From contig NZ_JADKYW010000005.1 of NCBI RefSeq assembly GCF_015355785.1, forward strand, positions 651,468 through 715,467: 64,000 bases of DNA. The letters run 5' to 3'. The notes beneath the pieces are model-generated. The model was not told where the DNA came from, made no database searches, and was given only the letters and a program-made list of their open reading frames with translations. This stretch comes from Arthrobacter gandavensis (GTDB lineage: Bacteria; Actinomycetota; Actinomycetes; Actinomycetales; Micrococcaceae). Position 1 is the stretch's first letter. Each line of letters begins with the position of its first letter. The position numbers and the translations under genes were made by a program. This document shows, in pieces, positions 13,521 to 17,526 of this stretch.

Positions 13521-14618
13521 CTATGACGCGTTGCGGCGGGTGCGTGCGGCCTGGGCAAGGACAGTCAGGACCCCCGCTGAGGTTTCCCAGTCCATGCACT
13601 TGTCCGTGATGCTCTGGCCGTAGACCAGCGGACCCGGATTCCCGGAGTCATGCGCCTGCGCACCTCCCACCAGGAAGCTCTCCAGCATGATTCCGGCAAG
13701 GATGCCGGCGCCTTCCGTTCCCGATTCAAGCTGGGCGGCCAGCTCCAGTGCGACTTCCGCCTGGCGGTGGTGGTCCTTTCCGGAGTTTGCGTGGCTGGCA
13801 TCGACGATGAGCCGCGGGTTCAGTTCCCGGGCCGCCAGCGCCTGCGAGGCGGCAGCGACGTCCGTCGGCGAGTAGTTTGGTCCGGCACTTCCGCCGCGCA
13901 GGATCAGGTGGGTGTCCGCGTTGCCGTCAGTGCGGACCATGGAGGCACGGCCGGAGCCGTCGATCCCCAGGAAAGACTGCGGAGCCGCGGCCGCCGCGCA
14001 GGCGTCCAGGGCGATCTGCAGCGAACCGTCCGTGCCGTTCTTGAAGCCGACCGGCATTGACAGTCCCGACGCGAGCTGGCGGTGGATTTGGCTTTCGGTG
14101 GTCCGGGCACCGATGGCTCCCCAGCTGACCAGGTCAGCGACGTACTGCGGGCTGATGGGTTCGAGGAATTCGGTGGCAACGGGCAGGCCCAGCTCGCCGG
14201 CCGCAATCAGGAACCTGCGGGCCGCGTACAGGCCAGCCTCAATGTCATGGGTGCCGTCCAGATGGGGATCGTTGATCAGGCCTTTCCAGCCCACCGTGGT
14301 CCGCGGCTTCTCGAAGTAGGCACGCAGCACAATGAGGAGGTCGCCACGGTGCTCTTCCGCCACGGCGGCCAGGCGGCGGGCGTACTCCAGGCCGGCGTCC
14401 GGGTCATGGATGGAGCAGGGTCCGACGACGACGAGCAGGCGGTCGTCAACGCCGTCGAGCACCGCGCGCACGGCGTCGCGGCTGCTGCGCACGGTGGCCG
14501 CCAGCTCACCGGAGAGCGGCAGTTCGGACAGCAGCTGCTCCGGCGCCGGCAACGGGCGGAATTCACGTACGCGCTGGTCTGAGGTGGTCTTGGTGTGCTG
14601 TGTGGCGGTGAGGTTCAT
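13521..14618 (-). CDS. 3-deoxy-7-phosphoheptulonate synthase, class I
   Basis: Class I DAHP synthase joins phosphoenolpyruvate and erythrose 4-phosphate in the first step of aromatic amino-acid biosynthesis. The 365-residue protein shows VVGPCSIHDP (about 64-73, metal-binding Cys), FEKPRTTVGWKG, GARTTESQ, VGFKNGTDG and VDASHANSGKD, with the metal ligands His and Asp in the last. This is the AroF/AroG/AroH type, distinct from the class II enzyme also common in Actinobacteria. Its length allows allosteric loops, but the effector cannot be predicted. The ATG at 14618 gives the usual N terminus. It lies 115 bases downstream of an aromatic leader peptide gene and three hairpins, which very probably attenuate it. 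Confidence 0.94.
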   Translation of the reverse strand: MNLTATQHTKTTSDQRVREFRPLPAPEQLLSELPLSGELAATVRSSRDAVRAVLDGVDDRLLVVVGPCSIHDPDAGLEYARRLAAVAEEHRGDLLIVLRAYFEKPRTTVGWKGLINDPHLDGTHDIEAGLYAARRFLIAAGELGLPVATEFLEPISPQYVADLVSWGAIGARTTESQIHRQLASGLSMPVGFKNGTDGSLQIALDACAAAAAPQSFLGIDGSGRASMVRTDGNADTHLILRGGSAGPNYSPTDVAAASQALAARELNPRLIVDASHANSGKDHHRQAEVALELAAQLESGTEGAGILAGIMLESFLVGGAQAHDSGNPGPLVYGQSITDKCMDWETSAGVLTVLAQAARTRRNAS

Positions 14619-14642
14619 GGTCCCGAATCCGGTTGAGGTGGA

Positions 14643-14733
14643 CCGGCGGGACTCAGCTTCAGAACCCGCCGGAAATGGCGAAGGACAGGGAATGATCCCT
14701 GTCCTGTTGGCTCTGAAGGTTGGCGTCAGCGAA
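14643..14733 (-). promoter_or_regulatory. Attenuator hairpins of the DAHP synthase leader
   Basis: Three structures occur in the leader RNA. Arm TTGGCTCTG at 14752-14760 (inside the leader peptide gene) is perfectly complementary to CAGAGCCAA at 14707-14715. A 10-bp perfect stem with a four-base loop (AGGACAGGGA) spans 14682-14705. An 8-bp GC-rich stem (CCGGCGGG) spans 14643-14672. In addition CTTCAGAGCC at 14709-14718 can pair over 10 bp, with one G-U, with GGTTCTGAAG at 14657-14666, which competes with the first and third structures. No strong U-run follows, so whether termination or start-site occlusion is controlled is open. Confidence 0.75.
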
Positions 14734-14790
14734 TTATCGCGCGGGCTCCTCCAGAGCCAACGAAAAATACGCATACCAACGGTTAGTCAT
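14734..14790 (-). CDS. Aromatic leader peptide of the DAHP synthase operon
   Basis: An 18-codon open frame, MTNRWYAYFSLALEEPAR then TAA, directly upstream of the DAHP synthase gene on the same strand. Residues 5-9 are Trp-Tyr-Ala-Tyr-Phe: all three end products of the pathway in five codons. The next codons, Leu-Ala-Leu, form the first arm of a hairpin. This is the arrangement of a ribosome-mediated attenuator, in which slow translation of the control codons changes downstream RNA folding. There is no Shine-Dalgarno sequence, but a good promoter places the transcription start at or next to the ATG, so it is probably leaderless. An analogous Phe-rich leader peptide is known upstream of a DAHP synthase gene in Corynebacterium glutamicum. 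Confidence 0.85.
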   Translation of the reverse strand: MTNRWYAYFSLALEEPAR

Positions 14791-14797
14791 GGGTAAG

Positions 14798-14826
14798 ACC
14801 GTAAGCCGGTTCCTCAGGCAACGCAA
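14798..14826 (-). promoter_or_regulatory. Promoter of the aromatic leader / DAHP synthase transcript
   Basis: Read leftward: TTGCGT (-35), a 17-base spacer, TACGGT (-10), then seven bases to the leader ATG. Spacing is ideal and both hexamers keep the key positions (TTG and TAnnnT). Transcription would begin at or beside the ATG, giving a leaderless mRNA. Confidence 0.65.
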
Positions 14827-14923
14827 ATTCCCGGGTTCACAATGCCTCTGTGTGACGCAAGGGCTGCCGTTGACGGCGTAGGCTCGGGTGCCAAGAACAG
14901 CCAGCAGTGAAAGAGAGTTTTTG

Positions 14924-17526
<2,603 letters not shown>

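Follow-up and report, generated by a model that had tools for sequence, protein, structure and literature searches.

A probable ribosome-mediated attenuator before the class I DAHP synthase gene of Arthrobacter gandavensis and related leaders in other actinobacteria

The class I DAHP synthase gene of Arthrobacter gandavensis is preceded by an attenuator-type leader, as a sequence-only reading had claimed, and the assignment is well supported by conservation of a small open reading frame, by conservation of the RNA pairing around it and by covariation between the paired strands. We consider it probable that this leader is a ribosome-mediated attenuator of aroF and the local member of an actinobacterial family of aromatic leaders. 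We propose more tentatively, as something possible yet open to considerable doubt, that the family represents an old actinobacterial RNA switch with Trp, Tyr and Phe codons before DAHP synthase genes and Phe/Tyr codons without Trp before chorismate mutase genes, in which rare synonymous codons are kept on purpose and the sensing codons themselves form one strand of the switch. Coordinates below refer to the window, the whole stretch of 64,000 nucleotides that was analysed.

The gene in question lies at 13521..14618 on the minus strand and encodes a class I DAHP synthase of the aroF type (TIGR00034 aroFGH, 468 bits versus a cut-off of 173; PF00793, 7.2e-86). Its ribosome-binding region and start (CGGGACC ATG) occupy 14616..14625 of the same strand, and its best named match is the DAHP synthase of Arthrobacter citreus DSM 20133, at 96% identity. 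The window's own genome contains one class I and one class II DAHP synthase match. Across 29 genomes of the genus, class II enzymes were found in 29 and class I enzymes in 12 (E 1e-60), and the enzyme behind the leader is therefore the optional one, a second enzyme under leader control that only some species have. A longer in-frame reading of aroF, 417 amino acids from an ATG at 14774 (13521-14774, minus strand), was rejected because a stop codon closes the matching frame in loci L010 and L012. That ATG lies inside the leader and constitutes an annotation trap. The idea that the same leader precedes class II DAHP synthase genes was likewise rejected, with none seen at the 20 loci examined of 29 found; class II locus L095 carries an unrelated Phe-rich frame, FFPALF.

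The leader frame, MTNRWYAYFSLALEEPAR, comprises 18 codons and a TAA stop at 14790-14734 on the minus strand, 115 bases upstream of the aroF ATG at 14618, and holds in five consecutive codons (TGG TAT GCG TAT TTT, 14778-14764) the proposed sensor cluster Trp-Tyr-Ala-Tyr-Phe (WYAYF), both as described in the sequence-only reading. The TGGTATGCGTATTT pattern has a single occurrence in the window's own genome. Three strong hairpins follow the frame, again as claimed, and the 227-nt stretch folds at -97.9 kcal/mol (z = -6.0, 200 shuffles). The hairpin arm said to start two codons after the cluster was misplaced, since it starts at the third base of the codon directly after Phe. The families of Rfam 15 (T-boxes, riboswitches and known leaders among them) gave 0 matches at gathering score in the whole window, and a known Rfam element was thus rejected as the identity of this RNA.

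The weakest part of the earlier reading proved to be the leader's own promoter. A -10 hexamer, TACGGT (14798..14803, minus strand), lies 7 nt before the leader ATG, with a possible, weak -35, TTGCGT (14821..14826, minus strand), 17 nt before it. The pair is a poor match to consensus, and promoter prediction lists no site there, its one promoter-like site falling inside the leader (14760-14733). A divergent gene on the plus strand (14888-16159), which we take to resemble an FMN-dependent alpha-hydroxy acid dehydrogenase, faces this promoter. In favour of the claim, a -10-like hexamer stands 4-10 nt before the leader start in 38/72 and 35/72 relatives versus 54/2880 shuffles, at a threshold of at least four of six matches, below which the window's own TACGGT (3/6) falls. 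The spacing to the leader start is 6-8 nt in 71 of the 73 relatives that have such a hexamer, which makes a leaderless leader transcript likely; for the window, we predict from sequence an mRNA that likely starts at the leader ATG. Small proteins heading leaderless transcripts are reported as common in mycobacteria (extract of PMC4633059).

A comparison of orthologous loci, proposed with the original claim, found both the frame and its pairing conserved, and the attenuator idea passed. In family f1 a class I DAHP synthase gene is present in 58 of 149 genomes. WYAYF lies upstream in 67 of 68 same-family class I loci, an unselected set made up of 64 loci from f1 genomes and four named Arthrobacter contigs (L014-L017), and the exception, L133, reads WYANF; left out were L013 and L018, whose contigs are identical to L002 and L011, and L165, identical in place to L138. 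The leader Trp codon sits 150-175 nt upstream of the aroF start in most same-family loci. A covariance model of the RNA, R1, trained partly on these f1 loci, finds it in 58 of the 58 gene-bearing f1 genomes (E <= 7.2e-17) and nothing of such strength in the other 91, where four weak matches reach E 1.7e-4 or worse, the genome lists for gene and RNA having been compared by eye. Six weak R1 matches that were looked at (L297-L302) are by eye not leaders.

Related leaders precede class I DAHP synthase genes in mycobacteria, Gordonia, Nocardia, Isoptericola and others. We define an f1-type set of 72 loci (the 68 above with L020, L021, L167 and L188); outside it, 72 of 132 loci pass an automatic test for a leader and strand B (described below), their clusters containing Trp, Tyr and Phe in 59, Tyr and Phe in 12 and Trp and Tyr in one. 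Further leaders outside the f1-type set were recognised by eye at L180, L222, L243, L169, L171, L204 and L216, perhaps at L239 and L240, and at L028 with no nearby stop. The cluster reads RWYAYF in Microbacterium (L021) and Candidatus Avipropionibacterium (L020), RWYWRF in Isoptericola (L026), RWYWRY in Streptomyces (L034), YWRF in mycobacteria, Gordonia and Williamsia, YFWF in Nocardia and Rhodococcus and an RYPYF type in family f34. Over the resulting 144 loci, Trp, Tyr and Phe fall within six residues in 131/144 upstream regions, a figure from a set chosen for having a leader, compared with 0/144 on the opposite strand and 37/2880 shuffles. No leader was found by the automatic test and by eye at 19/19 f31 class I loci, none in f4 (two copies per genome) or at the named Bifidobacterium/Gardnerella class I loci, and none by eye in the remaining non-f1-type loci, including two from non-actinobacteria (L023, L032); L313 likewise has none.

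From 5' to 3', the strands of the RNA, all on the minus strand, run A', A (with its local hairpin), stop codon, B', B, hairpin C, hairpin F, D, E and the ribosome-binding region. Strand A' (CGTTGGTATGCG, 14770..14781) spans the Arg-Trp-Tyr-Ala codons and pairs with B' (CGCTGACGCCAAC, 14719..14731), which lies directly 3' of the stop codon. Strand A (GTTGGCTCTGGAGG, 14748..14761) consists of codons after Phe and pairs with B (CCTTCAGAGCCAAC, 14706..14719), and folding energies also place a local hairpin, GGCTC-TGGAG-GAGCC, inside the leader at 14744..14758. Swap tests, folding models and covariation indicate that B, whose end directly adjoins hairpin C in the window, pairs with either A or the 3' part of D (GGCGGGTTCTGAAG, 14657..14670); the 5' GGCGGG of D pairs with F or E. 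Hairpin C (AGGACAGGGA..TCCCTGTCCT, 14682..14705) has no U-run here. The small hairpin F (CGCC..GGCG, 14667..14680), recognised by covariation, competes with D:E, and strand E (GTCCCGCC, 14645..14652), placed like A', B' and D by swap tests, has two possible partners, D and the aroF ribosome-binding region. Hairpin F is enlarged in L152-L158 (CGCTATTTT..AAAATAGCG in L157 and L158), and the leader is longer in the genus of these loci.

In the swap tests, native partners were contrasted with shuffled partners, with reversed partners as the control. Over the 144 loci native pairing is favoured for A:B (-26.1 vs -20.3; reversed -12.9 vs -12.7), for A':B' (-10.8 vs -8.7; reversed -7.35 vs -7.40) and for B with its downstream region (-17.3 vs -14.8; reversed -12.9 vs -12.5). 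Within the 72 f1-type loci the values are -26.2 vs -24.9 for A:B, -16.2 vs -11.8 for hairpin C, -19.6 vs -16.6 for D:E, -15.5 vs -14.7 for B:D and -13.2 vs -10.6 for E with the ribosome-binding region (E:SD; reversed -9.9 vs -9.0), where the controls are not clean, as reversed partners slightly favour the native ones for A:B, C and E:SD. A':B' gives just -12.08 vs -11.99 in this set; because A' is invariant there, the test is powerless.

Covariation was scored in alignment A1, 40 sequences hand-chosen from the 144 loci. For A:B, C and F together it reaches 0.326, compared with 0.157 for shuffled and at most 0.116 for slid alignments, and 15 of 28 pairs show changes in both partners; 32/500 shuffles scored as high on one measure out of five, the count of further pair types. 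Kinship among the sequences inflates these numbers, and the slid control retains that kinship. Double changes affect 6 of the 14 pairs of A:B, 7 of the 10 of hairpin C and 4 pairs of D:E (57 sequences). A pairing of A with the 5' arm of C (CUCUG:CAGAG), present in 99% of 57 sequences with zero double changes, was not adopted. The codons of the leader also favour A:B, at -26.5 vs -15.5 kcal/mol for random synonymous versions (143/144 loci). The local A hairpin is at or below -3 kcal/mol in 142/143 loci; selection on it is unclear, with a median of 20% of random synonymous versions equally stable. By eye, strands A, B and D changed in concert in L020. In L114 a one-base insertion in strand A alters the end of the peptide to SLCSGGARV; A:B is intact in the model and B:D hardly forms.

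When a ribosome is modelled on the leader, A:B prevails if it stands at Trp (13.2 pairs on average) or at the first Tyr (13.3), and B:D if it stands at the second Tyr (6.8), at Phe (8.1) or at the stop codon (8.3); the modelled ribosome covers 12 bases past the A-site start, perhaps more than is realistic. GGCTC, the core of the A helix, begins five bases downstream of Phe, and A may therefore stay free when a ribosome halts at any one of the four aromatic codons. A five-base spacing of this kind resembles that of frameshift-stimulating hairpins. The models thus support A:B and B:D as two mutually exclusive states chosen by ribosome position, the basis for this exclusivity being prediction and covariation. 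In the mechanism that we envisage, translation of the leader probably takes place on a leaderless transcript. A shortage of charged aromatic tRNA would halt the ribosome on WYAYF, where it would cover A' and free A. A:B would then form, as it does in the folding models for halts at the first two aromatic codons; at the last two, its formation would depend on the distance between helix and ribosome. Translation to the stop codon would cover A and let B pair with D. We infer that A:B is the starvation ("on") state and B:D the resting state, with output either through termination near hairpin C and B:D or through access to the aroF start.

The aromatic codons of the leaders invert the usage of the genes that they precede. 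Among the 144 leaders Tyr is encoded by TAT 223 times and TAC 5 times and Phe by TTT 139 times and TTC 11 times, whereas the DAHP synthase bodies of the same loci (900 bases per gene, loci long enough for it) use TAT 0 and TAC 368 times, TTT 9 and TTC 592 times. In the f1-type set the second Tyr is TAT in 70/72 leaders and Phe is TTT in 69/72; in the window at large, counted over 38 mechanically picked frames, TAT makes up 61 of 326 Tyr codons and TTT 71 of 530 Phe codons. The first Tyr codon falls within strand A', where pairing may dictate its bases. Neither the second Tyr codon nor the Phe codon lies in a well-supported helix (a weak candidate of four pairs, columns 15-18 with 94-97, covers Phe and has a single double-changed pair), and the inversion therefore points to decoding, that is to rare codons, or to the need for an unstructured stretch. 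The two synonyms of each pair, TAT/TAC and TTT/TTC, are read by one tRNA. Elf and Ehrenberg (extract of PMC1183508) treat the choice among isoacceptor tRNAs, which does not account for the inversion.

A class-wide search of 295 genomes with R1 also returned matches in f31 genomes that lack a class I DAHP synthase at E 1e-60. Of the 14 f31 matches examined (L283-L296, E 2.6e-6 to 2.6e-11), all have a leader that contains Phe, nine have one that contains Tyr, and Trp is absent throughout. The next gene encodes a chorismate mutase domain in all seven proteins tested (of 14 loci), six of which fuse the mutase behind a weak DAHP-synthase-like match (five above the Pfam cut-off, L283 below), the seventh being a stand-alone chorismate mutase. 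Since chorismate mutase serves Phe and Tyr only, the absence of Trp from these leaders fits sensing; Trp-less f34 leaders before DAHP synthase genes warn against a strict rule linking codons to pathway branch. In Escherichia coli, pheL-pheA senses Phe before a chorismate mutase gene, and the ilv leader reads several amino acids. By description, both count among the known systems closest to the leader of the window, which itself has no Rfam match.

In Corynebacterium glutamicum, according to an extract of a 2025 review (PMC11802643), aroF is controlled by ribosome-mediated transcription attenuation through the leader AroR, which carries Phe-Tyr-Phe; transcription rises when Phe is limiting and does not respond to how much Tyr is available. 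An extract of PMC4046766 lists the same leader among new leaders for ribosome-mediated transcription attenuation. These extracts compare the aroR RNA with that of no other genus. The window shares with aroR-aroF a short aromatic leader frame directly before a class I DAHP synthase gene; compared by description, it differs in reading WYAYF, whereas aroR has Phe-Tyr-Phe and a reported response to Phe only. A corynebacterium-like leader, L303 (MRMWRFYFSKAPEAETS), contains Phe-Tyr-Phe and by eye has A', A, B', B and C in common with the window's RNA, including an A':B' pairing and a hairpin C with TTTT, D not being seen. The trp attenuators of Corynebacterium and Streptomyces, in the first part of PMC1262725, likewise combine a leader peptide, regulatory codons and alternative hairpins, but use Trp codons only and GC-rich terminators with poly-U. 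That part of the 2005 actinobacterial survey by Seliverstov (PMC1262725) describes structures upstream of genes for Trp, Cys and Leu, T-boxes upstream of ileS, and no conserved structures before other amino acid pathway genes; the eight leaders named in an extract of a Streptomyces lividans survey (PMC8079986) include none for DAHP synthase. Among the matches listed in the open-access literature, the C. glutamicum leader is the only one recognised before a DAHP synthase gene, and we claim only weakly that the class-wide leader is absent from print.

Whether the leader in the window reads Trp, Tyr and Phe together, as first proposed, is a narrower question than whether it attenuates. The attenuator is well supported; sensing of three amino acids is possible, with doubt arising from the pairing of A', the Trp-less leaders and the C. 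glutamicum case. UGG and the first UAU lie within A', paired with B', so RNA pairing could explain their conservation, and the last Tyr and Phe codons, which lie in no well-supported helix, are for that reason the best sensor candidates. It is a real possibility, falling somewhat short of probable, that the same attenuator senses only Phe, perhaps with the last Tyr, and that Trp and the first Tyr are kept by pairing with B'. Strand A' overlaps Trp-Tyr-Ala and covaries with B', 12 of the 72 leaders outside the f1-type set lack Trp, and f34 loci such as L207 and L210 have CGG (Arg) in place of UGG, with CCGACG on the facing strand, which reads CCAAC in the Trp-bearing L209. In C. glutamicum, as excerpted from PMC11802643, the aroF leader answers to Phe and not to Tyr. 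Set against a Phe-only sensor are the TAT inversion shared by the Tyr codons, including the second Tyr outside A', and the absence of Trp from 14/14 chorismate-mutase-type leaders, as though its presence mattered. Within f34 the pairing is kept in L207 and L210 and less well in L214.

The output of the proposed attenuator is harder to assign. No U-run terminator or terminator-like site was found in the window, where the tail of hairpin C reads TCGCCATTTC, and no double-changed partner competes with the 5' arm of hairpin C, so that a classical contest of terminator and antiterminator is not seen. The element works as an attenuator in our reading yet is not classed as a textbook trp-type one, given this lack of a U-run terminator. 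Elsewhere hairpin C is terminator-like, with T5-T6 tails at 13/14 f31 loci and T4 at one, and T-rich tails in L081 and some mycobacteria. Modelled access to the aroF start (unpaired) is 0.46 with a halt at Trp vs 0.50 at the stop codon, lower in 41/72 loci and higher in 15/72; at equilibrium, access is thus nearly equal between the states, leaning against A:B as the "on" state. The fold without a ribosome already favours A:B (9.9 vs 2.6 B:D pairs), and together these two results slightly lower our confidence in the main reading.

We also weighed an output at the level of aroF translation, with E masking the ribosome-binding region unless D holds E, and judge it doubtful though worth retaining. 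It draws on the native preference of E:SD in the swap tests, on the double-changed pairs of D:E, on the window's want of a U-run and on an extract of PMC7356990 that describes translational control by AroR. Equilibrium folding, however, gives no gain of access in the A:B state, the f31 hairpin C runs into its T5-T6 (13/14) or T4 (1/14) terminator-like tails, and an extract of PMC11802643 treats the C. glutamicum leader as one that attenuates transcription. Far less probable is that the small protein itself acts, as an arrest peptide or in trans, with RNA pairing secondary: WYAYF is almost invariant within the family, but beyond it the peptide varies (YWRF, YFWF, RYPYF, RWYWRF) while codon choice and A:B are kept, and the frameshifted L114 retains A:B. 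A chance frame without function has next to no probability left, being already refuted by WYAYF at 67/68 loci, the enrichment of W/Y/F clusters over shuffles and the RNA covariation.

The attenuator that we favour probably turns DAHP synthase on when aromatic amino acids become scarce. In actinobacteria, little has been described of RNA-level control over the step that opens aromatic synthesis, although the group is used in amino acid and antibiotic production. With a widespread leader, natural Trp-less variants and a copy before chorismate mutase genes, the choice and weighting of sensor codons in leaders that read several amino acids become directly testable.
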